A DNA stretch of 64,000 bases, taken from the NCBI RefSeq assembly GCF_001633165.1, contig NZ_CP015418.1:1481001-1545000 (forward strand), in the 5' to 3' direction. Source of the DNA: Rhodovulum sulfidophilum DSM 1374. GTDB taxonomy: Bacteria; Pseudomonadota; Alphaproteobacteria; Rhodobacterales; Rhodobacteraceae. Every line of letters begins with the position of its first letter. Positions within the stretch are counted from its first letter, which is position 1. The translations under genes and the position numbers were made by a program. The notes beneath the pieces are model-generated. The model was not told the DNA's origin, did not search any database, and saw only the letters and a list, made by a program, of their open reading frames with translations. Positions 32,484-49,670 of the stretch are shown in pieces.

Positions 32484-33230
32484 TCAGGACGACCGTGTCG
32501 AGGCCGTCTGGCCGCCGGTTTCCTCGTCCGCATCGCAGAAGCAATAACCGTCGCCATGCACAGTGACGATCCAGCGCGGGTTCTTCGGGTCGTCCTCGAT
32601 GCGCTTTCTCAGCCGCGCGACCAGCACGTCTATGGCGCGATCTTCATAGCTCCAGTCGCGGCCGCAGATGCGTGGCGTCAGGCGCTCGCGCTCCAGGACT
32701 TCGCCGGCATGGGTCAGGAATATGGCGAGCAGGCGCGTCTCGGACGGGCTCAGGCGCAAGGTCCGGTTGCCGAGCGACAGCGTGCGCGTCGCCGGATGCA
32801 GGCGGAACGGGCCGCGCGTGATCGGGCCGTCCATCGCCACGTCGAGCGAGCGCCGTCCCGAGGCGAGGAGGTTGCGGATGCGCAACCGGATCTCGTTGGC
32901 GTTGAAGGGTTTCGAGATGTAGTCGACGGCGCCGAGGCCGATCCCCAGCATGCGGTCCTGCTCGTCGCGCATCACCGAGAGCACGATGATCGGGCAGCGG
33001 CAGCTTTCCTGGACCCGCCGGATCAGCAGCAGACCGTCGCCGTCCGGCAGGCGCCGGTCCAGAAGCACCAGATCCCAGGCCGCGTTGCGGATCGCGGCCC
33101 GCGCCTCGTCCGAGGTCCGTGCCTCGCCGACATGGTGGCCGGCCTCGCCCAGGATCCCGCGCAGCATGGCGCGCGTGACGGCATCGTCGTCGACGATCAG
33201 GATCCGGCTGCGCGCGGGCGTCATCAGCAT
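32484..33230 (-). CDS. OmpR-family response regulator, divergent partner of the ddh operon
   Basis: 248 residues. Receiver domain with ILIVDDDAVTR, phospho-acceptor Asp in LVLLDRRLPDGDG and the conserved Lys in SKPF. The C-terminal winged helix has LSPSETRLLAIFLTHAGEVL and IDVLVARLRKRIEDDP, ending with a VHGDGYCF hairpin. The start at 33230 overlaps the kinase gene by 7 nt, with AAGG 7 nt upstream; the ATG at 33224 is an alternative. The tight coupling to the hybrid kinase and divergence from ddhA suggest it controls DMS respiration genes. A TorR-like role is inferred. Confidence 0.92.
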   Translation of the reverse strand: MLMTPARSRILIVDDDAVTRAMLRGILGEAGHHVGEARTSDEARAAIRNAAWDLVLLDRRLPDGDGLLLIRRVQESCRCPIIVLSVMRDEQDRMLGIGLGAVDYISKPFNANEIRLRIRNLLASGRRSLDVAMDGPITRGPFRLHPATRTLSLGNRTLRLSPSETRLLAIFLTHAGEVLERERLTPRICGRDWSYEDRAIDVLVARLRKRIEDDPKNPRWIVTVHGDGYCFCDADEETGGQTASTRSS

Positions 33231-35599
33231 GGGTGCGCCTTCGCCAGTCCGGAGGCGCGCGCCGGTGCCGTGTCGAGCAGCGGCATGAGACGGCGGCGCC
33301 ACAGGCCCAGATCGGCGGCCGGGGGATGGCGGCGGCAGCGTGTCTCGCAGGCCGCCAGCTCTTCGGCCAGGTCGACGAAGCCGAGCGTCGTGCAGCTGCT
33401 GGCCATGCGGTGCGCGATCTCGGCCGCCTCCTGGCCGTTGGCGGTGTCGAAGGCGCGCAGGAGCGCCGCGCGGTCGCTGCCCCATTGGGTTTCGAAGGCG
33501 CTTACCATGGTCCGCAGGATGCCCGGAGAGACGCCGTCGAGATCATGCGCCGCCTGCCTTGGGGGGCCGCTGTCCTGTCCCGCGCCGGTCAGCGCCTTGC
33601 GCAGCGCATCGGATGTGGCGGGTTTCGCCACCACCGCGTCGAAGGCGCTGCGGCCCCCGGAAATCAGCTCGGCATTGGCGGTCAGCGCGACCGCCCGGCG
33701 ACCGGCCCCCATCCTGCCGCGCTGCGCGAGCTTGGCCAGAAGGTCGATGCCGTCGCCGTCGGGCAGGTGGTAGTCGATGAGGAAGACGTCGAACTCCCGA
33801 TCGGCGACGCGATCCAGCGCCGTCCGGATCGAGGCCGCCTCGGCGGGCTCGGCGCCGAGGCGGCGCAGATGCTCGACCGTGACGAAGCGGCTGATGGCAT
33901 CGTCATCCACGATCAGACAGCGCAGGCCCGTGATCGCGTCGGCCGGGTCGTCGGAGGCGAGGGCCGCGGGCACGGACGGGCGCCGGGCCGCGACCAGCGG
34001 GATCTCGAACCAGAAGGTCGCGCCGGTCCGGCGGTTGCAGAACCCGATCTCGCCCTCCATCGCGGTGACCAGCCGCCGGCAGATCGCAAGCCCGAGGCCC
34101 GAGCCCGAGGTCTCGCCCTGGCCGGGCGTGGTCGCGCCGAACGGCTCGAACAGGGTCTGGGCCACGTCGGGCGCGATACCGGCGCCGCCATCGCGCACCT
34201 CGAACCGCAGCCCCGGCCTTCGCCCCGTGGCGGCGCGGCACCTTATGGCAAGGGTGATGTCGGTGCGGGTGTGGCGGACGGCGTTCGAGATGAGGTTGGT
34301 CAGGACCTGCTGTGCCATCTCCCAGTCGATGTCGATCCAGGCAGGCAGGCGGGTCGTGGTCTCGATGCGGAAGTCGACGCCGGCATTGCGCGCCAGCGTC
34401 GTCGCGAAGCGGGCATAATCGTCAAGCACGGCGCGCAGGTCGACGACACGCGGCTTGGGCGCGGGCGGCCGGGCTTCGAGGCGCGAATAATCCAGCACCT
34501 TGTTCAGGGTCTGCAACAGATGCCGGCCGGTGACCTGGATCGCATCGCGATAGATCCCGATCCGTTCGGGATCGGAATCGCGCAACAGCTCGGCCGCGCC
34601 CAGAACGCCATGCAGCGGTGTGCGGATCTCGTGGCTCATCGTGGCGAGGAATTGCGACATGGCACGCTGCGCCCGCATCGACTCGTCGGTCGCGCGGCGG
34701 TGTTCGGTCACGTCGTGCAGGATCGCGACATAGCCGAGCCGCAGGTTCTGCACCGCGTCGTGGATCTGACGCACCCGCACGTCGAAGCAGAGCCGCCCCA
34801 TGCGCGTGTCGATCCAGAGCGCGTCGCAGCCTTCGGGGTTTTCGCAGTTCCAGAGATCGAGGTCGCGCAGCGCCCGTTCCAGCGGCGCCTTTCGCGCCCG
34901 CATGGTGCTGAGATAGACGATCTCGCCCGCGCCGGCCTCGCCCACGAAAAGCTCGGCCGCCGCCTGGTTGCCAGTGATCAGCCGCCGTTCCCGGTCGAGC
35001 AGGAAGGCCGGATCGCGCAGGCTTTCGAACACCGCGAAGTAGCGGTCCTTTTCAAGCGTGACGGCGCGGTTGCGGGATTGCATGTCGCGCAGCCGCGTGT
35101 CGTCCCCGCAATCCGCCCAATGCGCCGCGATGCCGAGTTCCGCCAGATCGAAGAAGCCGCGCACCCGGTCGGCGAGTTCGGCCGCCCCGGCCGTATTCGC
35201 GTCCGCGCCCAGAACCTCCAGATAGATCTCGCGGAAATGCTTGAGGAACCCCAGGTAATGCTGCAGCGACACGCCGTGGGCGCGATGCCGGATCGCCACC
35301 TCGCGCAGCCGTGCGAAGCGGGGATCAGCCGCATAGTCGATCCGGGCATGCGGACCGTCCGAGGCGGCCTGGCCCTCGGGCAGGTAGGCGCCGAGGCTCT
35401 CGCTTACCGCGGCCACGGCCTCCTCCCAGGCGGCGCGGATGGTCGTGGTGAAGCGCGCATAGCCTTTCGCCCTGGCCCGCCTGATCGCGGCATCGACAAG
35501 GCTCTCGCTGATCTGCGCAAAATCCGCACACAATTGATCCGTGCGCGGCGTCGGTCCGATTTCCCGCGGCATGGCACCATCCGGGGCCGATTGCGGCAC
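33224..35599 (-). CDS. Hybrid histidine kinase (sensor-PAS-HisKA-HATPase-REC-HPT)
   Basis: 791 residues from a GTG at 35599, chosen because GAGGAGG lies 4 nt before it; the later ATG (35572) and the earlier GTG (35674) lack an SD. The N-terminal helical domain (about 20-180) looks like an RsbRD/globin-type sensor. Then a PAS segment, HisKA with SHEIRTPLHG (His323), HATPase with LTNLISNAVRHT and GSGLGLAIC, a receiver with FLIDYHLPDGDG (Asp609), and an HPT with AEIAHRMAS (His730). No membrane segment is seen, so the sensor is cytoplasmic. The phosphorelay layout resembles TorS/ArcB. It is co-encoded with the OmpR-type regulator and divergent from ddhA. Confidence 0.9.
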   Translation of the reverse strand: MPQSAPDGAMPREIGPTPRTDQLCADFAQISESLVDAAIRRARAKGYARFTTTIRAAWEEAVAAVSESLGAYLPEGQAASDGPHARIDYAADPRFARLREVAIRHRAHGVSLQHYLGFLKHFREIYLEVLGADANTAGAAELADRVRGFFDLAELGIAAHWADCGDDTRLRDMQSRNRAVTLEKDRYFAVFESLRDPAFLLDRERRLITGNQAAAELFVGEAGAGEIVYLSTMRARKAPLERALRDLDLWNCENPEGCDALWIDTRMGRLCFDVRVRQIHDAVQNLRLGYVAILHDVTEHRRATDESMRAQRAMSQFLATMSHEIRTPLHGVLGAAELLRDSDPERIGIYRDAIQVTGRHLLQTLNKVLDYSRLEARPPAPKPRVVDLRAVLDDYARFATTLARNAGVDFRIETTTRLPAWIDIDWEMAQQVLTNLISNAVRHTRTDITLAIRCRAATGRRPGLRFEVRDGGAGIAPDVAQTLFEPFGATTPGQGETSGSGLGLAICRRLVTAMEGEIGFCNRRTGATFWFEIPLVAARRPSVPAALASDDPADAITGLRCLIVDDDAISRFVTVEHLRRLGAEPAEAASIRTALDRVADREFDVFLIDYHLPDGDGIDLLAKLAQRGRMGAGRRAVALTANAELISGGRSAFDAVVAKPATSDALRKALTGAGQDSGPPRQAAHDLDGVSPGILRTMVSAFETQWGSDRAALLRAFDTANGQEAAEIAHRMASSCTTLGFVDLAEELAACETRCRRHPPAADLGLWRRRLMPLLDTAPARASGLAKAHPC

Positions 35600-35844
35600 T
35601 TTCCCTCCTCGGAACGCGGCCCCGTTCTCCTCCCGCGTCGAGGATAGGCCGAGGTCTGGCGATGCGGCAAGCACGCAATCGAAAACTGTTACAAGTCACC
35701 CACGAATTTCTACATCTCCTCAAACACCGCGGCCCCGTCCCCGCTCTAGGCTCGATGCGAAGCCGAAACGACATAAGCCCCGCGCCATGAACAAGAAACC
35801 GGCCCTGAGGCCGGACCGGCGCGGAGCAGCAAGGGAGGGGATCG
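35600..35844. promoter_or_regulatory. Divergent promoter region, kinase gene/ddhA
   Basis: 245 bp between the kinase gene and ddhA. A lower-GC part (about 35680-35730) is the likely promoter and regulator-binding region. A 6-bp hairpin, CCGGCC-CTGA-GGCCGG, lies at 35799-35814 in the presumed ddhA leader, 30 bp before its start, followed by a strong SD, GGGAGGGG. No repeat clear enough to call an operator was found. Confidence 0.45.
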
Positions 35845-38577
35845 ATGCTTCGTACCACGCGCCGCACCTTGATGCAGGGAGCGTCCCTTGTGGGCGCCGG
35901 GCTTTTCGCGGCAGGCCGCGGCTGGGCGCTGAACCGGCTTGAACCCATCGACGACACGCTGGCCGAGGAATATCCCTACCGCGACTGGGAGGATCTCTAC
36001 CGCAACGAGTTCACCTGGGATTACGTCGGCAAGGCGGCCCATTGCATCAACTGCCTCGGCAATTGCGCCTTCGACATCTACGTCAAGGACGGCATCGTCA
36101 TCCGCGAAGAGCAGCTTGCCAAATATCCCCAGATCAGCCCGGACATTCCCGACGCCAACCCGCGCGGCTGCCAGAAGGGCGCGATCCATTCCACCTCGAT
36201 GTACGAGGCCGACCGGCTGCGCTATCCGATGAAGCGGGTCGGCGCGCGCGGCGAGGGCAAGTGGCAGCGCATCAGCTGGGACCAGGCGACCGAGGAGATC
36301 GCCGACAAGATCATCGACATCTACGAGAAATACGGCCCCGGCAAGCTGATGACCCATACCGGCTCGGGCAACATGTCGATGATGCGCATGGCCGCGCCCT
36401 ACCGCTTTGCCTCACTGGTCGGGGGCGTGCAGCTCGACATCTTCACCGATGTGGGCGACCTCAACACGGGCGCGCATCTGGCCTATGGCAACGCGCTCGA
36501 AAGCTTTACCTCGGATGCCTGGTTCGGCGCCGACTATATCATGTTCCTGCTGTTCAATCCGGTCGCCACCCGGATCCCGGACGCCCATTTCCTGTGGGAG
36601 GCGAAGTGGAACGGCGCCCGCGTCGTGTCGGTCGCGCCCGACTACAACCCGTCCTCGATCCATTCCGATCTGTGGATGCCGATCAAGCAGGGCGCCGACC
36701 CGTTCCTGGCGATGTCGATGGTCAATGTCATCATCGAGGGCAAGCTCTACAACGAAGCCTTCATGAAGGAGCAGACCGACCTGCCGATCCTGGTGCGCAG
36801 CGATAACGGGATGCTCCTGCGCGAGGCCGATCTGGAGGAAGGCGGCTCGGACCAGGTGTTCTATCACTGGGACAGCCGGACCGGCGCGGCGGTCAAGGTC
36901 AAGGGCTCGATGGGTTCGGAGGAAAAGACCCTCGTTCTGGGCGATGTCGATCCGGCGCTCGAGGGCAGCTTCGAGGTGGGCGGAATCCCGGTCACGACGG
37001 TGTTCGAGAAGGTCCGGGCCGAGGCCGCCAAATACCCGCCCGAAGAGACCGCTGCGATCACCGGGATCGGTCCCGGGGTGGTGCGCGCCGAGGCCGAGAC
37101 CTTTGCCCGGGCCAAGAAGGCGCTGCTGATGACCGGCTTCAATATCGGGCGCTATTCGAACGGCATCTATACGAGCTGGGCGCTGACGCTGATGCTGGCG
37201 CTGACCGGCCATGGCGGCCGGACCGGCGGGCTGGACACCTCCTGGATCGCATGGAACCAGCCCGCCTTGCTTGAGCTTGCGTTTTTCGACTTCAAGAAGC
37301 TGCCGCGGCTGGAGGCCGGGGGGCTGGGCGAATTCGTGCGCGGCGGCATGATGGAGCATTCGCGCCAGCACTACGACAACGACAAGCTCAAGGCGCGCAC
37401 CGGCTTCGATCTCGACGAGTTGCAGGAGATGATCGACGAGTCGATCGATGCCGGCTGGATGCCCTATTACGGCGACATGAAGGGGCTGATCTCGATCGCC
37501 GACAACAAGTTCCGCCGCAACAAGAATGCCGAGGCCTATCGCGAGCGCATCCTCGAAGAGGTCGAGGAATTGTTCGTCGATATCAATGTGCGGATGGATT
37601 CGACCGCGCAATGGGCCGATTACCTGCTGCCCGCCGCCGCGCATTACGAGGCCTGGGATCTGCGCTCGATCGCCTTCCACCGCTTCGTCAACGTCTTTTC
37701 CCGGCCGGTGCCGCCGATCGGCGAGGCGAAGTCGGACTGGGAGATCATGGAGATCCTGACCCGGAAGATCCAGGAGCGCGCCATCGCCCGCGGCATCACC
37801 GGATACGAGGATGGCGATGTCACCCGCGACTTTGCCACCATCCACGACGATTACACGATGGACGGCACGCTGATGACCGACCATGACGTCGTCAGCTGGC
37901 TGGTCGAGAACGGCCCCGAATTCGCCGGCGCGACGCTGGAGGAAGGGGTCGAGCGCGGGTTCTTCGTGATGGGCGAGGATGCGGGCCCGACGCAGAAGCT
38001 GCGCCCAAGCGAGCCCTATCACGCCTTCCTGCAGCAGACCGAGGGCAAGGAGCCCTACAAGACGATGACGGGGCGGATCACCTTCTTCGTCGATCATCCC
38101 CGCTTCGTGAGGCTCGGCGCGACGGTGCCGACGGCCCGCCATCACGCCGGACGCGACGCCTCGAACTATCCGCTGAACTTCTTCTCCCCGCATACCCGCT
38201 GGGGCATCCATTCGAACTGGCGGAGCAACAAGTTCATGCTGCGCCTGCAGCGGGGGGAGCCGAACATCTATATCAGCCCGCAGCTTGCCGCGGCCAAGGG
38301 CATCGCCGACGGCGCACAGGTCCGCGTCTTCAACGAGCTGAGCTTCTTCTTCGCGCAGGCCAAGTTCTACCCCAGCCTGCCGCCCGATACGATCATGATG
38401 GAGCATGGCTGGGAGCCGCACCAGTTTCCGAACTGGCGCCCGATGAATGTCTGCATGGCGACGCTGTTGCAGCCGCTGGAGCTGGTGGGGGGCTGGGGAC
38501 ACCTGAACTTCTCGCTCTGGCACTGGAACGCCAACCAGCTTGCCCATGAAAGCAGCGTCGACATCGAACCCGCCTGA
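35845..38577 (+). CDS. ddhA: Dimethylsulfide dehydrogenase-type molybdopterin subunit (type II DMSO reductase family)
   Basis: 910 residues. A twin-arginine signal (TTRRTLMQGAS) directs folded, cofactor-loaded export to the periplasm. The N-terminal cluster ligands are His66, Cys70, Cys74 and Cys109 (H-x3-C-x3-C-x34-C), the type II pattern shared with NarG. Asp224 in FTSDAWFG aligns with the aspartate that ligates Mo in this subfamily, and IPDAHF follows as in NarG. The gene order A-B-D-C is shared by DMS dehydrogenase, ethylbenzene dehydrogenase, selenate reductase and chlorate reductase. The DMS assignment rests on the apparent Rhodovulum-like background and overall resemblance, so the substrate is less certain than the family. 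Expected reaction: DMS + water to DMSO, feeding electrons to a c-type cytochrome. Confidence 0.85.
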   Translation: MLRTTRRTLMQGASLVGAGLFAAGRGWALNRLEPIDDTLAEEYPYRDWEDLYRNEFTWDYVGKAAHCINCLGNCAFDIYVKDGIVIREEQLAKYPQISPDIPDANPRGCQKGAIHSTSMYEADRLRYPMKRVGARGEGKWQRISWDQATEEIADKIIDIYEKYGPGKLMTHTGSGNMSMMRMAAPYRFASLVGGVQLDIFTDVGDLNTGAHLAYGNALESFTSDAWFGADYIMFLLFNPVATRIPDAHFLWEAKWNGARVVSVAPDYNPSSIHSDLWMPIKQGADPFLAMSMVNVIIEGKLYNEAFMKEQTDLPILVRSDNGMLLREADLEEGGSDQVFYHWDSRTGAAVKVKGSMGSEEKTLVLGDVDPALEGSFEVGGIPVTTVFEKVRAEAAKYPPEETAAITGIGPGVVRAEAETFARAKKALLMTGFNIGRYSNGIYTSWALTLMLALTGHGGRTGGLDTSWIAWNQPALLELAFFDFKKLPRLEAGGLGEFVRGGMMEHSRQHYDNDKLKARTGFDLDELQEMIDESIDAGWMPYYGDMKGLISIADNKFRRNKNAEAYRERILEEVEELFVDINVRMDSTAQWADYLLPAAAHYEAWDLRSIAFHRFVNVFSRPVPPIGEAKSDWEIMEILTRKIQERAIARGITGYEDGDVTRDFATIHDDYTMDGTLMTDHDVVSWLVENGPEFAGATLEEGVERGFFVMGEDAGPTQKLRPSEPYHAFLQQTEGKEPYKTMTGRITFFVDHPRFVRLGATVPTARHHAGRDASNYPLNFFSPHTRWGIHSNWRSNKFMLRLQRGEPNIYISPQLAAAKGIADGAQVRVFNELSFFFAQAKFYPSLPPDTIMMEHGWEPHQFPNWRPMNVCMATLLQPLELVGGWGHLNFSLWHWNANQLAHESSVDIEPA

Positions 38578-38615
38578 TCCAGGCGCGCGCAACCTACGGG
38601 ACTGAGTGAACCGAT

Positions 38616-39593
38616 ATGGTAAAACGTCAAATCAGCATGGTCCTCGACCTCAACAAGTGCATCGGCTGCCAGACCTGCACTTCGGCCTGCAAGCTGCAAT
38701 GGACCAACCGAAACGGCCGCGAATACATGTACTGGAACAATGTCGAGACCCATCCGGGGCCCGGCTATCCGCGCAACTACGAACATTCGGGCGGCGGCTT
38801 CGACGAGGAGGGCGCGCTGAAGATCGGCATCACGCCCTCGGCCGAGGATTACGGCATCCCCTGGGAATACAATTACGAAGAGGCGCTGATGACCGGGACC
38901 GATCCCTGGCTGCGCCCGAACGTCAAGCCCACCTGGGGCGCCAACTGGAACGAGGACGAGGGCCGGGGTGAATACCCCAATTCCTACTATTTCTACCTGC
39001 CCCGGATCTGCAACCACTGCGCCAATCCGGGCTGTCTGGCGGCCTGCGCGCGCAACGCCATCTACAAGCGGCAGGAGGACGGCATCGTTCTGGTCGACCA
39101 GGAGCGCTGCCGCGGCTATCGCTACTGCATCACCGCCTGCCCCTACAAGAAGGTCTATTTCAACGAGCAGATCTCGAAGGCGGAGAAATGCATCTTCTGC
39201 TATCCGCGGATCGAGAAGGGCCTGCCCACCGCCTGCGCCAAGCAATGCGTCGGCCGCATCCGCTTCATCGGCTATCTCGACGACGAGGCGGGGCCCGTGC
39301 ACCTGCTGGTCGAGCGCTACAAGGTGGCGATCCCGCTGCATCCCGAATGGGGCACCAAACCCAGTGTCTTCTACGTGCCGCCGCTGGCGCCGCCCCGGAT
39401 CGGCGATGACGGCGAACCGACCGAGGAGACGCGGGTGCCTCTCGCCTATCTCAAGGAGCTGTTCGGCGAGGCGGTCGTGCCCGCGCTTGCGACGCTGAAG
39501 ACCGAGCGCGCCAAGAAGCAGTCGGGCGCCGAAAGCGAGCTGATGGACACGCTCATCGGCTATCGCCACCCCGAAATGTTCAAGCTGAGCTGA
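38616..39593 (+). CDS. ddhB: Iron-sulfur subunit of the DMS dehydrogenase-type enzyme
   Basis: 325 residues, NarH-like, holding four Fe-S clusters that relay electrons between the Mo and heme subunits. Cysteine groups: CIGCQTCTSACK near the N-terminus, NHCANPGCLAACARN, CRGYRYCITACPYKK and KCIFCYPRIEKG...CAKQCVG. CRGYRYC has an aromatic residue in place of a cysteine, the mark of a 3Fe-4S cluster in this family. It has no signal of its own; related subunits travel with the Tat-targeted alpha subunit. SD weak; 38 bp after ddhA. Confidence 0.87.
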   Translation: MVKRQISMVLDLNKCIGCQTCTSACKLQWTNRNGREYMYWNNVETHPGPGYPRNYEHSGGGFDEEGALKIGITPSAEDYGIPWEYNYEEALMTGTDPWLRPNVKPTWGANWNEDEGRGEYPNSYYFYLPRICNHCANPGCLAACARNAIYKRQEDGIVLVDQERCRGYRYCITACPYKKVYFNEQISKAEKCIFCYPRIEKGLPTACAKQCVGRIRFIGYLDDEAGPVHLLVERYKVAIPLHPEWGTKPSVFYVPPLAPPRIGDDGEPTEETRVPLAYLKELFGEAVVPALATLKTERAKKQSGAESELMDTLIGYRHPEMFKLS

Positions 39594-39603
39594 CGGGCCC
39601 ATC

Positions 39604-40356
39604 ATGACCGCACAGACCCGCCGCCCCCCGACCCATGACGATGCCCTGGCGCGCGCCCGCGCCGGGGAAAGCCTCTGGCGCCTCGGCGCGCTGGCCTTCG
39701 GCCATCCGGTCGAGGAATTCCACCGGGCGCTGCTCGACGGCAGCTTCCACGAGGCCGTCGATGCCGCCTGGTCGGCGCTGACCGGCCGGCCCTGGCCGCG
39801 CGAGGCGCCCCCGCCGCGCTTTGCCGATCTCGAGGCGGGCTATATCGCCGCCTTCGAGCATGGCCGGGGCGGCAAGCGGCTGGCCTCGCTTCTGGCCGGC
39901 GAGCACAAGGACTTGCTGGCCGGGCAGGCCCGCCCCGCCTTCATGTTGAACGTCGCCGCCTTCTATCGCCATTTCGGACTGAGGCAGGCGACGGCCGACG
40001 AGGGCCGCGTGGACGAGCCCGACCATCTTGCCTGTCTGCTCGAATTCATGGCGGTCCTGTCCCATCTCGAGGCCGCCGCGATCACCGGCGGCAGGGACCC
40101 GGGCCCGGTCCGCCGCGCCGCGCGCGATTTCCTGGTGCGCTATGTCGAGCCGATGCTGGCACTCATCGCGACAGCGCTCCGAAGACCGTCCGAGCCGCCG
40201 CTCGATGCGACGCTGGTCCGGCTGACCCGGGATCTGCACGGCTTTGCCGAAAGCCGGATCGCCGAGCTCGCCGCGCAGGTGGGACCTTACCGCTCGGCCG
40301 AGGCGCGGTCCGATGCCGCGCCCGATGCGGCCGCACATCAAAATCTCTGGGGATAG
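39604..40356 (+). CDS. ddhD: TorD/DdhD-type molybdoenzyme maturation chaperone
   Basis: 250 residues, all-helical, with ESLWRLGALAFGHPVEEFHR at the N-terminus and the TorD-family VDEPDHLACLLEFMAVL segment (about residues 135-155). Such proteins bind the Tat leader of the apo-alpha subunit and hold back export until the Mo cofactor is in place. They stay in the cytoplasm and are not part of the final enzyme. It starts 10 bp after ddhB and ends 9 bp before ddhC, the standard ABDC position. Confidence 0.85.
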   Translation: MTAQTRRPPTHDDALARARAGESLWRLGALAFGHPVEEFHRALLDGSFHEAVDAAWSALTGRPWPREAPPPRFADLEAGYIAAFEHGRGGKRLASLLAGEHKDLLAGQARPAFMLNVAAFYRHFGLRQATADEGRVDEPDHLACLLEFMAVLSHLEAAAITGGRDPGPVRRAARDFLVRYVEPMLALIATALRRPSEPPLDATLVRLTRDLHGFAESRIAELAAQVGPYRSAEARSDAAPDAAAHQNLWG

Positions 40357-40365
40357 GAGGTGAGC

Positions 40366-41163
40366 ATGCCCGGATTTCGGTTCTTCCTTGCCGCGACGGC
40401 GGCATTTCTGGCGACCTCCCCGGCGCTGCCGCTTTCTGCCGATAGCCTGAATGCGGGGAATATCCGGCTGATCGAACCCGGAGAGACAGTGCCTGTCATA
40501 AAGATCCCCGACGGCATCTATCTGCGCACGCCCAACGACCCCGATGACATCATCTGGGCGCGGGTGCCCGAGTTTCGGGTCGAGATGGTGATGGCGCCGC
40601 CGGTCCATCCTTCGGTCGGGCTGCGCTATCGCGACGAGTATCCGGAACAGGATCTGGTGGTACAGCTCGCGCGGACCTCGGAGCGCTTTTACGTGCGCCT
40701 CCGCTGGGTCGATCCGACCCGGGACATGTCGACCCTGCGGGACAGGTTCCGCGATGGCGCGGCCATCGAATTCTCGGAGTCCGATGACAGCGTGTCCTAC
40801 ATGATGGGGACGGATGCCGAGAGCCCGGTGAATATCTGGTATTGGCACCCCGACGGCGATCGCGTGGAATCGCTTGCGGCCGGCAGCCCGGGCAGCCTGA
40901 CCCGGCTGGACCGGCAGCCGGTGACCGGGGCAAGCGAATATCGCGCCGGGCACGGTCCCGACGACAGTCAGTGGATCGTGGTCATGTCGCGGCCGCTTGC
41001 CAGCGAGGGCGATCATCAGGTCAGCTTCGAGCGCGACACGATCCCGGTGGCCTTCGCGCTCTGGCAGGGGGCCGACGCGCAGCGCGACGGGCTGAAGCTC
41101 GTCTCGCTGAACTGGATATTCGCGCGGATGACACCCGATGCCGCGCCCGCGCCGGGGAACTGA
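40366..41163 (+). CDS. ddhC: Heme b subunit of the DMS dehydrogenase-type enzyme
   Basis: 265 residues from the ATG at 40366. AGGAGG sits 5 nt before it, which rules out the GTG at 40360. A Sec signal peptide (FFLAATAAFLATSPALPLSA) exports it separately. The body is the EbdC/DdhC-like heme-binding beta-sandwich (LYLRTPNDPDDIIWAR-like opening, FYVRLRWVDPTRD, YMMGTDAESPVNIWYW). In the family the single heme b passes electrons to periplasmic cytochromes. It is followed after 4 bp by the Mrp-type ATPase gene. Confidence 0.85.
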   Translation: MPGFRFFLAATAAFLATSPALPLSADSLNAGNIRLIEPGETVPVIKIPDGIYLRTPNDPDDIIWARVPEFRVEMVMAPPVHPSVGLRYRDEYPEQDLVVQLARTSERFYVRLRWVDPTRDMSTLRDRFRDGAAIEFSESDDSVSYMMGTDAESPVNIWYWHPDGDRVESLAAGSPGSLTRLDRQPVTGASEYRAGHGPDDSQWIVVMSRPLASEGDHQVSFERDTIPVAFALWQGADAQRDGLKLVSLNWIFARMTPDAAPAPGN

Positions 41164-41167
41164 GACA

Positions 41168-42286
41168 ATGGCACATCCGAACCTGAAGATCCCCGATGGC
41201 AGCGGAGAAGAATGCGGGCGGGGCCATGCCTGCGGCTTCTGCCCGCAGGAACAGACCTGCACACTCGACAAGCGCGCCCATAACAAGACGCTGGTCGAGG
41301 CGCGGCTGGGCGAGATCGGCCAGATCGTGCTGGTGCTGGGCAACAAGGGCGGCGTCGGCAAAAGCACCGTCTCGGCCAATCTCGCGGCCGGGCTGGCAGC
41401 GCGCGGCTTTCGCGTCGGCATGGCCGATGCCGATATCCACGGCCCGAACCAGAGCCGCTATTTCGGCTTTGCGGGCGAACATATCCGGGTGGATGCGCGC
41501 GGCCTTGCCCCCAAGCATTTCACGGACCCGGCGCTGCGGCACGGGCTCAAGGTCGGCTCGCTTGCCTTCATGCTGCAGGACGATGATGCGCCGGTGGTCT
41601 GGCGCGACGCCTACAAGCACGATTTCGTCCATCACCTGATGGGCTCGTTCGACTGGGGCGCGCTCGACTTCCTGATCGTCGACATGCCGCCTGGTACCGG
41701 CAACGAGCTGATCACGCTCACCGACCTGCTCGAAGGCTGCGATGTCGGCGCGCTGCTCGTCACCACGCCGCAGGCGGTCGCCCAGATGGACAGCCTGAAG
41801 GCGGCGCGGTTCTGCCTCGAACGCGGGCTGCCGGTCATCGGCTGCGTCGAGAACATGGCCGGCGTGGTCTGCCCGCATTGCGCCGGTGCCTTCCACCTCT
41901 TTCCCGAGGCGGGGCTGGGCGAAAAGCTGACGGCGCTCGGGATCCGGCGGCTCGCGCGGCTGCCGCTCGACCCGGCCATCGCCGCGGGCTCGGATGACGG
42001 GCGCCCCGTCGCGCTTGACCCGGATGCGGCACCGCCCGTCGCCGAGGCGCTGGCCGCGATCGTCGGGGCCTGCGCCGCACTCGGCAGCGCCGGGTTCCAG
42101 GATGCGGCGCTGCGCAGCCTCGACGCCGCTTTCGCAGAGAACCTCGAGGACGAGGATCTGGCGCGCGCGCTGGCCGCGTTGCCCGAGGCCGAGCGTGAAC
42201 AGATAGGCCGCGCGCTGGCCGAGGCCCTGACGGAGGAGAGCGGTCGCTTTCACGGCGCGGCCTCGGTCCCGGGGGGCAAGGCATGA
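41168..42286 (+). CDS. Mrp/Nbp35-like P-loop ATPase with N-terminal cysteine motif, in the ddh operon
   Basis: 372 residues from the ATG at 41168. Deviant Walker A GNKGGVGKST (about 58-67), LIVDMPPGTGNE, and the CPHC pair at Cys235/Cys238 are those of Fe-S-carrying Mrp/ApbC proteins. In addition the N-terminus has C16-x5-C22-x2-C25-x5-C31, close to the second cluster-binding motif of eukaryotic Nbp35 and absent from ordinary bacterial Mrp. It also carries a roughly 100-residue helical C-terminal extension. It starts 4 bp after ddhC and ends in a 4-bp overlap with the next gene, so it belongs to the operon. Likely job: delivering Fe-S clusters to DdhA/DdhB before Tat export (inference). Confidence 0.88.
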   Translation: MAHPNLKIPDGSGEECGRGHACGFCPQEQTCTLDKRAHNKTLVEARLGEIGQIVLVLGNKGGVGKSTVSANLAAGLAARGFRVGMADADIHGPNQSRYFGFAGEHIRVDARGLAPKHFTDPALRHGLKVGSLAFMLQDDDAPVVWRDAYKHDFVHHLMGSFDWGALDFLIVDMPPGTGNELITLTDLLEGCDVGALLVTTPQAVAQMDSLKAARFCLERGLPVIGCVENMAGVVCPHCAGAFHLFPEAGLGEKLTALGIRRLARLPLDPAIAAGSDDGRPVALDPDAAPPVAEALAAIVGACAALGSAGFQDAALRSLDAAFAENLEDEDLARALAALPEAEREQIGRALAEALTEESGRFHGAASVPGGKA

Positions 42287-44130
42287 GCGGCGCGGTCCCC
42301 GCAGAGGCCGCCCTCAGCCGACGCAACCTGCTGCGCGGCAAGCTGGACGGGGGTCCGGCCGTCGCCGGTTGGCAGGACATGGCCGGGGCGCCGACGGTGC
42401 CGGGCGATGTGCTCTGGGCGGTGCATGCCTGTGGCGAGACGCTTTTCGTCGGCGGCGACGAGGGCACGATCCTGCAATTCGACGGGGCCCTCTGGAGGCG
42501 GAGCCGGCTTTCGGCCCGCGTTCCGGTCCATGCCATCGCGGGCGATCCCGAAACGGGGCTGCTGGCCGTGGGCTGGATGGGCGCGGTCTGGCGGTTCGAC
42601 GGCACGGACTGGCGGCTCGAGCGCGGCTGCGAGGTCGGCGCGGATGGCAAATATGCTGCTTGCGCAGAGAATACGCCGCTTTTCGGTCTCGCCGCCGACG
42701 GCGAGGGGCGGTTCTGGGCGGTGGGCGACGAGGGCACGATCCTGCATTTCGACGGCGAAGGCTGGCATGCTGAGGCCTCGGGCACACGGTTTCACCTGCG
42801 CGCCGTCACGATGCTGGGCGATGGACGGGTGCTGGCGGCCGGCGCGAATGGCACGGTGCTGATCCGGGGCCATGACGGCGCGTGGTCGGCCGGGGATTGC
42901 CCCGTCGCCACGACGATCCACTCGGCGCTGGCGCTGGCTCCGGACGACGTGCTGCTGGCGGGCGGGCGCTATTTCCTGGATGCGGGCGGGTTCCGCGGCG
43001 ATCTGCTGCGCTGGGATGGAAAGGGTTTTCGCAAGCTCGATCCCGGCCCGGGAGTGACACGTCTGCGCGCGCTGGCCGCGCTTTCGGGCGGGGCGCTGGC
43101 GGTGGGCGATCGCGGGCAGAGCTTTCGCATCGCGGGCGAGCGCGTCACGCGCCTGGCCGACGGCACGTCGCACGACCTGCTGGGCCTGGCGGTCACCGCT
43201 TCGGGCGCGGCCGTCGCGGCGGGCGATTTCGGCACGCTGCTGGCGGGCGACGGCGCCACGGCGCCTGCTCCCGTCGTCCGGACGCGGCCCGCGCCCTGCT
43301 GGGACCGGATGACGACCGGGACGGATCGGCAGATCTGGGCCGTCTGGCAGCATCCCGAAACGGGCACCGCCTATGCCTGCGGCGAGGAGGGTCTCGTGCT
43401 TCGGCGGGAGGGCGATGGCTGGGAGGCCCTGCCGCCGGTCGGTACGCTCGGCCTGCATGCGCTGGCTGCAAGCGAGGATGGCGGTGTTCTAGCCGCCGGG
43501 CAGATGGGCGAGATCCATCATTTCGACGGAACACGCTGGCGCAGGCATTTCGATCTGAAGCTCGACGTGACGATCCTGGCGCTCTGGAGCGACGGGGCCG
43601 GGACGATGATCGCCGCGGGCGACGAGGGGTTGGTCCTGCGCTGGACGGGCGAGAGCTGGACCCGGATGGTCAGCGGTACCCAATCGGCGCTCTACGCGCT
43701 CTGGGGGCCCGATCCCGAGCATCTTCTGGCGGTGGGCGATTCCGGGTTGGTGCTGCGTTGGAACGGCCGGAACTGGCAGGAATTCACCTGCGGCAGCGAG
43801 GCCTTCCTCTTCGGTGTCTGGGGCACGGGGCTCGACAACATCTTCGTCACCGGCCTTTCCGGCACGATCCGTCACTTCGACGGACAGGGCTGGCAGGCGG
43901 CGCCGACGCGGATGCGAAACGACCTTCTGGCGATCTCGGGCAAAGGGGCCGAGGCCGTCGCCGTGGGCACGGCGGGCGCGGCGCTGCGCCATGACGGCAA
44001 GGCCTGGCGGAGCGAGCCGACCGGGTTCGACGGCGGGCTGAGGGCCGTCAGCGCCACCGGCCCCGCGATCCTCGCGGCGGGCGACGGAGGCGCGATCCTG
44101 CGCCGCCGCGGGTCTTGGGGCGCGCCCTGA
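42283..44130 (+). CDS. 14-repeat beta-propeller protein in the ddh operon
   Basis: 615 residues, overlapping the ATPase gene by 4 bp (ATGA). From about residue 40 to the end it is built of about 14 copies of a ~42-residue repeat with the core GDEGTILHFDGxxW, often preceded by LxALWG or LFGVWG. Examples near the C-terminus are AGDEGLVLRWTGESW, VGDSGLVLRWNGRNW and TGLSGTIRHFDGQGW. Fourteen repeats would suit two seven-bladed propellers. The N-terminus carries LSRRNLLRG, like a twin-arginine motif, but no hydrophobic stretch follows, so it is probably cytoplasmic. Its function is unknown; an assembly scaffold or substrate-binding partner for the enzyme is plausible. Confidence 0.85.
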   Translation: MSGAVPAEAALSRRNLLRGKLDGGPAVAGWQDMAGAPTVPGDVLWAVHACGETLFVGGDEGTILQFDGALWRRSRLSARVPVHAIAGDPETGLLAVGWMGAVWRFDGTDWRLERGCEVGADGKYAACAENTPLFGLAADGEGRFWAVGDEGTILHFDGEGWHAEASGTRFHLRAVTMLGDGRVLAAGANGTVLIRGHDGAWSAGDCPVATTIHSALALAPDDVLLAGGRYFLDAGGFRGDLLRWDGKGFRKLDPGPGVTRLRALAALSGGALAVGDRGQSFRIAGERVTRLADGTSHDLLGLAVTASGAAVAAGDFGTLLAGDGATAPAPVVRTRPAPCWDRMTTGTDRQIWAVWQHPETGTAYACGEEGLVLRREGDGWEALPPVGTLGLHALAASEDGGVLAAGQMGEIHHFDGTRWRRHFDLKLDVTILALWSDGAGTMIAAGDEGLVLRWTGESWTRMVSGTQSALYALWGPDPEHLLAVGDSGLVLRWNGRNWQEFTCGSEAFLFGVWGTGLDNIFVTGLSGTIRHFDGQGWQAAPTRMRNDLLAISGKGAEAVAVGTAGAALRHDGKAWRSEPTGFDGGLRAVSATGPAILAAGDGGAILRRRGSWGAP

Positions 44131-44221
44131 GGTGCGATGGAGTTGCTCCCGGATCCCGGACTTGGAGTTACAGGCCTCTCAGGGAATAATGATCCTGCCC
44201 CGAAGACGTGGACGGGGTCAT

Positions 44222-45117
44222 GCCGCCATGCGCTCCATCTCGGCCGGTTATCCGTAACCTGTTGCGGAATGCAGTCGCCGTGAATGGCAGAAGCCCTCGA
44301 TGTAGGCAAGAAGATCGCGGTACGCTTCATCCCTGATGGCGTAGACGCGGTGGTGGACGCGCTCGATTTTGTACATGTGAAAGAAGCTCTCCATCGGCGC
44401 GTTCTGCGTCTTCGGCCGATCCCCTGGATCTTCCGATCCGCTTTAGCGGACCGGCTTGAACTAGAGGCAATTCCCCTTTCGTCTCATCGAGGACGTTATC
44501 TTCGCTGCGGCATAGGATTGGCGATCCTCGTCCGATGCGTATCGGCCCCCGCGAACCGCGTATTGGATCGAACCGGATGCCGGGCGCGGACGTCTGAGGG
44601 CCATGTGGAGCGCTTCGCGCGCGATCGGGGCATGCAAGGTCTCGCGCATGCTCCGGCCAACGACCTTGCGCGTATGCATATTGATAGACGCGGCAAGGAA
44701 AAGCCAGTCTTCTCCGGTCCGAATGCAGGTCGGATCGGCCAGCCAGACGGGGGCAGGCGCGGTTGTCGTGAAGCTTCCACGCAGCCTGTTCGGCACCCAT
44801 GAGGATCACAAAATGGTCCGGGGAAACGTTTTCACGAGGGGTGAGTAATCGTTGCGGCTGTCCGTTGTGCGAACGCGACGAGGGATCGCGGCCAGACGGA
44901 CCCTGCGCTCGCGGAATGGAGCGCCGCGCACGGTCCGTTTCCAGCGGCGCGAACCGGCACATTCAGCGCCGCAGAACTGTTTCACGCAGCCGGTGTCCGT
45001 CGGCCACTTCGATGATCGTCAGGCCACTGTTGTGGTCCCGATCCACCACCTCGCGCTTGAACGCAGCGGGGAGATGACGGCGTTTCTTGCTTTCAATACA
45101 ACACTCATGTCTTGGCT
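44222..45117 (-). pseudogene. Decayed IS3-family element (orfA + orfB)
   Basis: OrfA starts near 45117 and gives KKRRHLPAAFKREVVDRDHN and GLTIIEVADGHRLRETVLRR, then stops. OrfB is recognisable as VWLADPTCIRTGEDWLFLAA, INMHTRKVVGRSMRETLHAP, AAKITSSMRRKGNCL and, after a frameshift, ESFFHMYKIERVHHRVYAIR and LLAYIEGF near the end. Several stops and frameshifts and a missing orfA/orfB junction make it inactive. It separates the ddh operon from the RND module. The remaining gap, 44131-44221, has nothing I can identify. Confidence 0.88.
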
Positions 45118-45313
45118 CGAAAGCCTATCAGGGCAGTCCACTCAGGCGCGGCAAGGCCCCTGCCGCGTACCGTCGTCCATAATCCGCCGTGTCGGCGGAA
45201 AGCGTCGTGCTTTTAAGTGGGCGGTCCACCTTTTCCGGTTGGCTGGCGACTGCCGCACTGGCGTCCCGCGCCTCCGGTCCGTCGCGCAGTGGCCCGACGG
45301 ACCGGCAGAGGGA

Positions 45314-45335
45314 ATATCTCCACGATATCTCCACG
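45314..45335 (+). promoter_or_regulatory. Tandem 11-bp direct repeat upstream of the RND operon
   Basis: ATATCTCCACG is repeated head to tail (45314-45324 and 45325-45335), 66 bp before the adaptor gene. OmpR-family regulators bind direct repeats spaced one helical turn apart, and the operon encodes such a regulator, so this is a good autoregulatory site candidate. No other gene is visible in 45118-45401. Confidence 0.5.
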
Positions 45336-45401
45336 AAACCTCGGCGGTTAGTCCACCGGCCGATGCCAGTTGGTTGCAGTGTGAAACCGACGGGACGCAA
45401 C

Positions 45402-46541
45402 ATGGCACGCCGAAATATCCTGATCCTATCGTTCCTCGGCCTGATGGCCGGGACGCTTGCGCTGTTCCAGCTTGCCGATCGCCCCGATGCGGCCCCGGCA
45501 GAAGAGAGCGGAACCGAGATGGCAGTCCAGGTGACCGTCGAGACGATCCGGCCCGAGCCGATCGTGCTTGCGACCGAGTATTCCGGCCGGGTCTCGGCCG
45601 CTCGGCAGGTCGAGATCCGGCCGCAGATCGGCGGTCTGATCCTGGAAAGGCGCGTCGAGGAAGGAACGCGGATCTCGGCCGGCGAGGTCCTGTTCCGCAT
45701 CGATCCGGCGCCCTTGAAAGCCGATCTGGCCCTCGCGGAAGCCGCGCTGATGCGTGCCGAAGCCACCGAGGCCCATGCCCGTCGCACCGTCGAACGCTCG
45801 GATGCCCTGCTTGCCAGGAAGGCCATCAGCCAGCAGAGCAACGATACTGCCCATACCGATCTGCGGCTTGCGATGGCCGGTATTGCGGAAGCGCGCGCCG
45901 CGGTGGAACACAAACGCCTCGACCTAGATTTCGCGACGCTGCGCTCTCCGATCGGCGGCTATGTCGCGGCGGGGCTGGCCGATGTCGGCGGGCTGGTCAC
46001 GGTCGGCGGCGAGAAGGCCCTGGCGGTGGTGCAGGACCTGGACAAGGTCTATGTCGACCTGCGTTTGCCGGCAGACGACCTGGACGCGGTCATGATGGCG
46101 GCCGAAGAGGGGCTGGGACCGGTCCGGATCGTCAGGGACCGTGACGGGGCGGCGCCCCTGACCGGCGTGCTGAAATCCTCGGATGTCATCGTCGATCCGG
46201 GCACGGGCTATGTCAGCGTCCGTATCGAGACCGCGAACCCGAAGCTTGCGCTGCTGCCGGGCATGTTCGTGCGCGCGAAGCTTCCTCGCGGCGCCGTTCC
46301 CGATGCGCTGCTGGTGCCGGAGGACGCCGTCCTGCACACCGCAGGCGGCGGGACGCAGCTTGTCGTCGTCTCGCCGGAGGGCAAGGCCCGGCGCCGCGAC
46401 GTTGTTCCGGGCGCGCGCATCGGCAACCGCATCATCATCGCCTCGGGCCTGACCCCCGGTGAGGTCGTGGCGATCCGCGGGCAGAACCGCGTGCCCGAGG
46501 GGGTCGCGGTATCGGTCGAGGCCCGCCCGGCCGAAACCTGA
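45402..46541 (+). CDS. RND efflux periplasmic adaptor (MFP) subunit
   Basis: 379 residues from the ATG at 45402 (GGGA upstream; the longer open frame upstream is not coding-like). N-terminal membrane anchor (ILILSFLGLMAGTLALFQLA), lipoyl half-motifs around VEIRPQIGGLILERRVEEG and LDFATLRSPIGGYVA, an alpha-helical hairpin between them, then beta-barrel and membrane-proximal domains. It links the RND pump to an outer-membrane channel, which is not encoded in this module and must come from elsewhere. Confidence 0.93.
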   Translation: MARRNILILSFLGLMAGTLALFQLADRPDAAPAEESGTEMAVQVTVETIRPEPIVLATEYSGRVSAARQVEIRPQIGGLILERRVEEGTRISAGEVLFRIDPAPLKADLALAEAALMRAEATEAHARRTVERSDALLARKAISQQSNDTAHTDLRLAMAGIAEARAAVEHKRLDLDFATLRSPIGGYVAAGLADVGGLVTVGGEKALAVVQDLDKVYVDLRLPADDLDAVMMAAEEGLGPVRIVRDRDGAAPLTGVLKSSDVIVDPGTGYVSVRIETANPKLALLPGMFVRAKLPRGAVPDALLVPEDAVLHTAGGGTQLVVVSPEGKARRRDVVPGARIGNRIIIASGLTPGEVVAIRGQNRVPEGVAVSVEARPAET

Positions 46542-46559
46542 TCCCGAAAGGCAGAGGCA

Positions 46560-49500: not shown

Positions 49501-49670
49501 TGGCACAAGGCGCCGCATCCGAGATCCAGAATGTGATCGGGACCGGCGTCTTCGGCGGCATGGTCTCGGCCACGATGCTGGCCGTCTTCTTCGTGCCGGT
49601 GCTTTATGTCACTGTCAGCCGCCTGACTCGCGGACTGGCCCGGGAGAAGCTGCGAAAGACCGCGCCATGA
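46560..49670 (+). CDS. RND multidrug efflux permease (HAE1/AcrB family)
   Basis: 1,036 residues, full length. Twelve membrane helices in two halves, each with a large periplasmic loop. The proton-relay motif in helix 4 reads GIIVDDAIVVVENVERIM, with the paired aspartates. The N-terminus is FFILRPVFAWVIAIFIMLAG. It works as an inner-membrane trimer exporting hydrophobic compounds with the preceding adaptor. SD-like AGGCAG precedes the ATG. Confidence 0.96.
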   Translation: MSQFFILRPVFAWVIAIFIMLAGIVAIPRLPVARFPDIAPPSVSIFTTYAGADAQTVSNSVVRPIEKELSSVKNVLYYESSIDSTGGASITVTFKPGTDPEMAQVEVQNRLKNAEALLPAPVRREGLGVEAAESGFLMVITLRSLSGATDELSLGDYLSRNLAEELKRVPGVGRVQQFGSERAMRVWVDPAKLSAYGLSMADVTGAIARENAQATPGRVGDEPTVPGTRVSTPLTIRGQLTTPEAFAGITLRANTDGARLVLGDVARLELGAQTMAFSVSSNGKGAAAAAIQMSPGANAVSTSAAIEKRLAELRLAMPEDMEVSISYNTAPFVKVSITKVIHTLIEAMVLVFLVILLFLQKVRYTLIPTIVAPVALLGTFAVMALAGYSINVLTMFGMVLAIGIIVDDAIVVVENVERIMARQGLSPRAATQQAMREISGAIIGITLVLSAVFIPMGLAGGSVGAIYRQFTLSMAVSILFSAFLALTLTPALCATLLRPVTGHGEARGFFGRFNRGFDRMTRRYTGWVGWTLRRGGRMLVLYAVLIGVMAAGYMRLPTSFVPDEDQGSFMAMFELPAGATAERTRAVIAAYEAHTATRPDITENTVILGFGFSGSGPNAAQAFTSMKDWSARKTSVDEEIAAAEAAMADIPEGMAMIMKPPAIESLGTTSGFSLRLEDRANAGPAALKAAEDRLIALAQASPLLSGVMSEGLPDGMSIALKIDREKAQALGLRFDTISETIGTAIGSTYVNDFPNQGRMQQVIVQADAPARMHVEDVLRLEMRNLEGGMVPLSEVATPVWESTALQLDRYNGYPAAQISGEAAGGVSSGAAMDEMERLAGALPQGFAVEWSGQSLQERQSASQAPMLLAASMLVVFLVLAALYESWSVPFAVMLVVPLGLLGAVAAVLLRGADNDVFFKVGLVTIIGLSAKNAILMVEYARHLRAGGRGLNRAILQAARLRLRPILMTSMAFILGVVPLMLAQGAASEIQNVIGTGVFGGMVSATMLAVFFVPVLYVTVSRLTRGLAREKLRKTAP

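Follow-up and report, generated by a model that had tools for sequence, protein, structure and literature searches.

We analysed a stretch of 64,000 nucleotides from Rhodovulum sulfidophilum DSM 1374 (contig NZ_CP015418.1, positions 1,481,001 to 1,545,000 of the forward strand; hereafter the window), in which the genes of a dimethyl sulfide (DMS) dehydrogenase, ddhABDC, are directly followed by genes for an Nbp35-like P-loop ATPase and a 14-bladed beta-propeller protein (Table 1). These two proteins are conserved accessories of one enzyme and are co-inherited with ddh. They probably form a dedicated maturation module, in which iron-sulfur (Fe-S) clusters would be loaded in the cytoplasm before export by the twin-arginine translocation (Tat) pathway, with the propeller serving as an adaptor. 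Searches of the open-access literature showed no description of the ATPase-propeller pair with ddh among the titles and abstract beginnings listed; the original ddh cloning paper lay outside that coverage, so an early mention of downstream open reading frames (ORFs) is possible. The main text of a 2023 review of molybdoenzyme maturation names a NarJ-like chaperone for type II enzymes and mentions neither ApbC nor a propeller (PMC10609526).

The products of ddhA, ddhB, ddhD and ddhC each pass the curated cut-off of their type II model (Table 1), in the order A-B-D-C, and by these matches the set is a type II dimethyl sulfoxide (DMSO) reductase of the DMS dehydrogenase type. The best solved relatives of DdhA are the type II enzymes 5e7o/4ydd and ethylbenzene dehydrogenase 2ivf, and a single type II alpha subunit in the window's genome passes the cut-off. 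Strain SH1 of R. sulfidophilum is the source of the characterised DMS dehydrogenase, which is designated DdhABC (PMC8520302), is listed as periplasmic (PMC10100899) and, besides its clusters, holds a Mo cofactor and heme b (PMC8840923). The window's genome comprises three contigs (4,347,929 bases in total); part of the third matches plasmid AP014801.1 of R. sulfidophilum at 97.3% identity over 10 kb, and the ATPase is 98% identical to a protein of that species. A preliminary description of this DNA had claimed a six-gene operon with two extra genes, and its ORFs, their order, the 4-bp gap between ddhC and the ATPase gene and the 4-bp overlap (ATGA) of the last two genes were all confirmed. The gap is 4 bp given an ATPase start at 41168; an alternative in-frame start is open at 41138, and the MAH start of the protein has an alignable counterpart in both nearest homologues. 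A scan of positions 35400-45300 for sigma-70-like promoters gave no match, which is weakly informative because only 1.0 was expected by chance.

The linkage of the pair with ddh was determined by scanning a genome collection with the propeller alignment by means of two peptide patterns, a procedure that distant propellers escape. The scan yielded 61 loci, of which three (L074-L076) were remote and partial and were left out. ddhC and the ATPase gene lie upstream of the propeller gene, in order and on the same strand, in 56 of the remaining 58, spread over Alpha-, Beta- and Gammaproteobacteria. The two loci without intact linkage are a metagenome-assembled genome (MAG) titled Anaerolineae (L063), which ends there with its contig, and Labrenzia DG1229 (L037), which has a scaffold gap. 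The latter was considered as a true separation, its propeller lying about 100 kb from the operon, and was rejected; the operon-side propeller gene enters a run of N and is therefore taken as an assembly break. All six genes stand in the order A-B-D-C-ATPase-propeller in 50 of the 60 loci examined, and contig ends explain most of the others (part of A-B-D is lost in this way from L026, L049, L055 and L070, while L066 and L073 contain interrupted genes). Since the order recurs at this frequency, the arrangement is not a matter of chance. Median gaps are 10.5 bp between ddhC and the ATPase gene and 23.5 bp between the ATPase and propeller genes; the latter gap reaches at most 104 bp, apart from 368 bp in L073, whose propeller gene is interrupted. 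The hosts comprise Rhodobacteraceae/Roseobacteraceae and others among the alphaproteobacteria, Alcaligenaceae among the betaproteobacteria, and Halomonas, Marinobacter, Pseudomonas, Oceanimonas, Colwellia and a Thiorhodococcus MAG among the gammaproteobacteria.

Co-inheritance was also seen in searches of whole genomes. A search for the alpha subunit, covering 50 of 57 propeller loci, found a type II alpha in 49 of 50 propeller genomes at E <= 1e-100 and in 48 of 50 over the cut-off; in the single genome without one at E <= 1e-100 the alpha is cut by a contig end. Among 151 genomes of the Halomonas family (around G704), the models for alpha and propeller pick out the same 12, with their matches at operon distance. 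The probability of identical sets under independence is 5e-18, kinship not being corrected for. What this test newly contributes is the absence of genomes with the alpha alone or the propeller alone, because nine of the 12 were already known through propeller loci. In the window's own family (295 genomes) the alpha occurs in three and the propeller in all three, two of which correspond to L017 and L027, and a random draw of 398 genomes from the phylum gave one positive, the genome of the window itself. In the order of a Stutzerimonas genome (G717; 293 genomes), an alpha exceeds the cut-off in five genomes, each of which also has the propeller and was already known through it; seven genomes of this order carry a different type II alpha that stays below the cut-off, and a full-length propeller is missing from all seven. 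The claim that the pair is dedicated to this enzyme is thus borne out by its place behind ddhC, by the type II alphas of its genomes and by the shared 12 of 151 genomes, and the possibility that the pair occurs mostly away from type II DMSO reductases is contradicted by the 56 of 58 loci.

The ATPase-propeller pair is missing from all 18 further type II loci whose flanks could be read, drawn from two clr plasmids and ten genomes (the plasmids together with L123-L125, L137-L140, L142-L145 and L173-L177; L097, L141, L146, L147 and L148 were left out for contig ends and L127-L129 as more distant enzymes). One control, L138, shows a weak ATPase-like match over 86 residues (30%, 45 bits). A full-length propeller is absent from 13 genomes whose alphas are of other type II kinds or more distant, the best match being partial (E 2.3e-11). 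The closest control, the gammaproteobacterial L174, which is the one locus read among those with alphas 57-63% identical, encodes an alpha 59% identical to DdhA along with B and C, and its 19.5 kb contain no match to D, the ATPase or the propeller. The L174 genome holds at least three further type II alphas. The chlorate reductase genes clrABDC of Alicycliphilus and Ideonella resemble ddh in encoding a type II alpha (44.5% identical), beta, chaperone and gamma in the same order, but have no ATPase or propeller gene nearby, a cytochrome c gene and mobB coming after the clr genes instead. A tree of alpha subunits separates the 52 rows of the Ddh clade, with a Shimodaira-Hasegawa-like approximate likelihood ratio (SH-aLRT) support of 99, from eight outgroup rows with unreliable long branches, L174 being outside the sampling. 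Because none of the 18 loci carries the pair, it follows the Ddh clade and not type II enzymes generally, and its candidacy as a general trait of type II DMSO reductases was rejected. By these sequence comparisons, the pair was either acquired in the Ddh lineage or retained there. To the question raised in the preliminary description, whether it tracks the ddh, ebd, ser and clr alphas, the answer in the loci covered is yes for the DMS dehydrogenase clade and no for Clr, the other type II loci and the 59% identical A-B-C set, Clr being the named control. As to why Ddh and not its cousins should have the pair, we can offer the guess that many of the hosts, as aerobic heterotrophs, have to make an oxygen-sensitive enzyme in the presence of air.

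Conservation within the proteins was read from a set of 48 operons, comprising the window and 47 loci with all six genes passing length limits. On three features, the PF10609 match, a deviant Walker A motif and a CxxC, the ATPase is classed as a putative Fe-S carrier of the Mrp/Nbp35 type. The Walker A motif reads NKGGVGKST in 48/48, N replacing the first glycine of the GKGG form, and besides the cysteines of Table 1, C216 is invariant (48/48). The best NCBIfam match is MrpORP (238.5 bits, cut-off 450), ahead of ApbC (144.4 bits), both below the model cut-offs, and the best match among PDB sequences is CFD1 6g2g (157 bits), other carriers reaching at most 146 bits. In eukaryotic Nbp35 the N-terminal cluster motif is CX13CX2CX5C; the ATPase has the four cysteines with a first spacing of 5 instead of 13. 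The CX5CX2CX5C is missing from the eight housekeeping-type Mrp copies read, including the window genome's own. At E <= 1e-30, each of eight genomes searched has one strong housekeeping-type PF10609 copy; the total is two in five genomes with a single ddh operon, three in one with two operons and one in two genomes holding only other type II alphas. Tropicimonas isoalkanivorans (L127) has an Mrp gene about 2.7 kb from a distant alpha of the DMSO reductase family (27% identical to DdhA), and this Mrp, beside the second molybdoenzyme of that genome, has no such cysteine motif at its N-terminus. Carrying Fe-S clusters is a known role of Nbp35/ApbC proteins, and MrpORP binds a [4Fe-4S] cluster via CxxC and transfers it by its P-loop domain (PMC6345978).

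The propeller gives no Pfam match even at E = 1. Its 14 repeats, claimed in the preliminary description, can be counted as 14 blades, of which 11 fit a strict G..G..W motif and three, near residues 226, 273 and 312, are degenerate. An AlphaFold2 model built from 21 sequences (mean predicted local distance difference test score, pLDDT, 87.5; predicted template modelling score 0.59) has a strand pattern that agrees with 14 blades, and because it contains a low-confidence break at residues 325-336, it suggests two seven-bladed propellers in tandem. Residues 1-28 have pLDDT < 50 and are predicted to be disordered; within them lies a Tat-like motif, RRx[FLI][FLI], that is present in every operon copy of the propeller and in none of the 48 sequences each of DdhB, DdhD, DdhC and the ATPase. 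Among 8000 candidates scored, 325 propeller homologues were found at E <= 0.001, and the RR is present in 117 of 120 of these, two of the exceptions beginning inside the propeller and one having WR. The hydropathy of the most hydrophobic 15-residue stretch after the RR in the same 120 homologues has a mean of -0.18 and a maximum of 0.98, and DdhA signal peptides give about 0.8 to 1.6 by this measure. As the two distributions touch, the charged residues directly after the propeller motif are the better sign. We take the N-terminus for a Tat motif that lacks a working signal peptide. As no strongly hydrophobic stretch follows the RR, the propeller is predicted to stay in the cytoplasm, and its reading as an exported protein was rejected. 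Two cysteines, C206 and C366, are nearly invariant and none is fully so among 21 sequences, which does not amount to the four cysteine-rich Fe-S motifs of NapF. A search of the PDB to E = 1 gave two matches, both to the lyase 8wok at E ~0.06, and no match to Cia1 by sequence.

Pairwise protein distances over the 48 operons were compared for all 15 gene pairs by partial distance correlation. The ATPase and the propeller gave the highest value of the 15 (raw 0.96, partial 0.65, with 0.39 as the partial value for DdhA-DdhB). When 60% of the taxa were drawn 500 times, the partial correlation ranged over 0.56-0.73 in the central 95% of the draws, and the pair was again at the top in the subclades of 13 alphaproteobacteria (0.68) and 35 beta- and gammaproteobacteria (0.75). 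Such tight covariation supports a working partnership of the ATPase and the propeller; it does not identify the enzyme subunit that they touch. Duplicated operons add a further aspect. Oceanimonas CHS3-5 (L130) has, beside one full set, a tandem ddhA-B-C without D, ATPase and propeller, and a second set in Oceanisphaera (L039) has kept D, with the ATPase only as remnants and the propeller at most as a scrap. Two complete sets occur in a gammaproteobacterial MAG (L132) and in the Thiorhodococcus MAG (L162). The stripped second sets fit trans-acting factors better than enzyme subunits, and one set of accessory genes can apparently serve more than one enzyme set in trans, as would be expected of maturation factors.

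In the maturation module that we consider probable, the ATPase would carry a [4Fe-4S] cluster on CPHC and probably a second on the N-terminal CX5CX2CX5C, and would hand clusters to apo-DdhA and apo-DdhB in the cytoplasm. The double propeller would be the partner and adaptor of the ATPase, keeping it together with the apoenzyme in a putative complex. Its disordered RRx[FL][FL] tail could mimic a Tat signal and would probably dock at a signal-peptide site, most likely on DdhD, which would keep cluster loading and Tat export in order. A precedent is offered by NapF, whose gene lies in the operon of the Tat-exported NapA; this cytoplasmic protein has been implicated in supplying NapA with its Fe-S clusters (PMC10609526). 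The proposal of Fe-S delivery before export made in the preliminary description gains from the retention of the carrier cysteines in the ATPase and from this disputed precedent. Linkage, gene order, motifs and covariation are observed; the delivery itself, a scaffold role of the propeller, the complex and the docking of the tail are inferred.

Several points weigh against this module. The loss of NapF has a minor effect in E. coli and Wolinella and a major one in Rhodobacter sphaeroides, and a review calls its role questionable in cases where NapF is missing or can be lost with little consequence (PMC10609526). Related enzymes, the two Clr and the other type II enzymes of the control loci, manage without the ATPase-propeller pair, so it is not chemically obligatory for such cluster-rich enzymes. 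The covariation of the propeller with DdhA is 0.49 in the whole set and falls to 0.21 and 0.05 within the subclades, because of which a direct contact between the two is unsupported; this candidate, with its signal in the full set alone, was rejected. All the distance correlations rest on one shared phylogeny and are not independent tests, and the hydropathy of the propeller tail (to 0.98) touches the low end of the DdhA signals (from 0.80). Some clients of the eukaryotic cytosolic Fe-S protein assembly (CIA) machinery bear a C-terminal tripeptide [LIM]-[DES]-[WF] (PMC10623007), and a tripeptide of this type was not seen at the DdhA C-termini examined or on DdhB. It was accordingly rejected as a feature of the enzyme, DdhB having instead a fixed tail of exactly MFKLS (window 39576-39590) in 52/52 operon homologues extracted. 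Other type II beta subunits read do not end in MFKLS; because some show MF-containing stretches there, we give the DdhB tail little weight.

Of the other explanations, the best surviving, which we still hold to be unlikely, makes the propeller an export gatekeeper or folding chaperone acting on the DdhA Tat signal or on DdhD, with the ATPase as an ATP-driven switch and not a cluster donor. The conserved Tat-like motif without a strong hydrophobic core and the leading ATPase-propeller covariation would suit it, and the ATPase weakly matches MinD models (50.8 bits). PF10609 fits the ATPase far better, at 226.8 bits, and its six invariant cysteines of the Fe-S carrier type would be needless in a pure switch. 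It is less probable again, to the point of being rather improbable, that the pair loads another cofactor by inserting Mo-bis(molybdopterin guanine dinucleotide) or by supplying heme b to DdhC. The Mo cofactor and heme b of the enzyme (PMC8840923) would offer such tasks, and DdhD is highly divergent (mean p-distance in the Ddh clade 0.49) and might need help, but the known role of Nbp35/ApbC proteins is to carry Fe-S clusters (PMC6345978), and Clr operons with the same four gene types do without the pair. More doubtful still is mere co-transcription, the pair serving other DMS metabolism or sensing, for example by signalling to the TorS/TorR-like regulators. In its favour, alphaproteobacterial operons are flanked by these regulators, and propellers serve quite generally as platforms for interaction. 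Beta- and gammaproteobacterial operons retain the pair with no such regulators in the upstream sequence covered, gene order and spacing are kept across three classes, and no propeller stands apart from the operon in the 58 loci, assembly breaks aside. Finally, a propeller that belongs to the mature enzyme as a structural or regulatory subunit, for which its place in the same operon and its presence in all complete Ddh-clade sets read (extra tandem copies excepted) might speak, is very improbable, as its export signal does not look workable for an enzyme listed as periplasmic (PMC10100899), the enzyme is designated DdhABC (PMC8520302) and a tandem A-B-C copy without a propeller exists.

Table 1. 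Features of the operon and its divergent regulators, in window positions; residue numbers refer to the encoded proteins.
Feature	Position	Strand	Basis or remark
TorR/OmpR-like response regulator, candidate regulator	32484..33485	-	PF00072 + PF00486; start uncertain, overlaps kinase ORF
TorS-like hybrid sensor kinase, candidate regulator outside operon	33224..35674	-	divergent from ddhA
ddhA, molybdopterin catalytic subunit	35845..38577	+	TIGR03479 1428 bits, cut-off 985
Tat signal of ddhA product	residues 5-12		TRRTLMQG
ddhB, Fe-S subunit	38616..39593	+	TIGR03478 601 bits, cut-off 481
ddhD, NarJ/TorD-type chaperone	39604..40356	+	TIGR03482 211 bits, cut-off 152
ddhC, heme b subunit	40360..41163	+	TIGR03477 261 bits, cut-off 170; PF09459
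Nbp35-like P-loop ATPase, 372 aa	41168..42286	+	PF10609 226.8 bits, cut-off 27.1
ATPase N-terminal CX5CX2CX5C (C16, C22, C25, C31)	41213..41260	+	invariant 48/48
ATPase CPHC motif (C235, C238)	41870..41881	+	both cysteines invariant 48/48
Beta-propeller, 615 aa, 14 blades (probably 2x7), cytoplasmic by prediction	42283..44130	+	blade motifs, AlphaFold2 model
Tat-like motif of propeller, SRRNLLR (residues 12-18), in disordered tail	42316..42336	+	RRx[FLI][FLI] in 48/48 operon copies

The TorS/TorR-like genes lie divergently upstream of ddhA in 12/12 alphaproteobacterial loci that hold the region, and the beta- and gammaproteobacterial operons show no TorS/TorR-like gene above 90 bits in the upstream sequence covered. 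The second Thiorhodococcus operon (L162) has similar TorS/TorR-like genes just downstream. In the window, ORFs resembling a membrane fusion protein and a resistance-nodulation-division (RND) permease (45189-49670, plus strand; named from their translations) begin 1.1 kb downstream of the operon and are apparently unrelated to it.

Studies of ocean metagenomes use DdhA to mark DMS oxidation (PMC8520302), and the ATPase and propeller genes travel with ddhA, with no real exception among the loci read bar tandem copies and assembly breaks. If the pair is indeed a maturation module, the heterologous expression of DMS dehydrogenase may need all six genes, and the pair would tell genuine DMS dehydrogenase operons from those of chlorate reductase and other type II enzymes. 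It would further provide a simple one-client system for the study of beta-propeller-directed Fe-S delivery and its coupling to Tat export. Two features, the Tat-like motif with which the propeller starts and the four-cysteine motif at the N-terminus of the ATPase, go beyond the preliminary description.

Like the housekeeping Mrp/ApbC proteins and MrpORP, the operon ATPase is a PF10609 P-loop ATPase with a CxxC, and MrpORP, too, has been proposed to be dedicated to one complex (PMC6345978). The operon ATPase differs from them in its CX5CX2CX5C, in having no second Pfam domain and in being an extra copy beside a housekeeping-type Mrp. The propeller recalls YCF48, an assembly factor of photosystem II (PF14870), as a beta-propeller family acting, from its Pfam name, in the assembly of a redox complex; PF14870 is matched by 6/21 propeller homologues at E <= 1, but the propeller of the window gives no match to it to E = 1 and probably consists of two propellers in tandem. 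NapF bears an SRR-type motif at its N-terminus without being transported. The ddh pair would share with NapF a cytoplasmic part in the Fe-S loading of a Tat-exported Mo enzyme from the same operon, the role in which NapF is implicated (PMC10609526), but NapF combines four [4Fe-4S] clusters in one protein, whereas in ddh the putative carrier (the ATPase) and the RR-tailed propeller are separate and belong to other families.

In the eukaryotic CIA machinery, Nbp35-Cfd1 forms the scaffold and the WD40 protein Cia1 is part of the targeting complex. The ddh pair has in common with it an Nbp35-type ATPase, an N-terminal cysteine motif (of different first spacing) and a beta-propeller that could choose the client, and differs in that no further CIA component was recognised among the six genes, that the propeller has 14 blades and that there is one client and not many. 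It is conceivable, though we put this forward only tentatively, that the pair is a bacterial counterpart of CIA for a single client, comprising an Nbp35-type scaffold and a double-propeller targeting subunit whose Tat-mimicking tail would sit in the site for signal peptides, on the chaperone or the translocon, for as long as any cluster is missing and would thereby time export.

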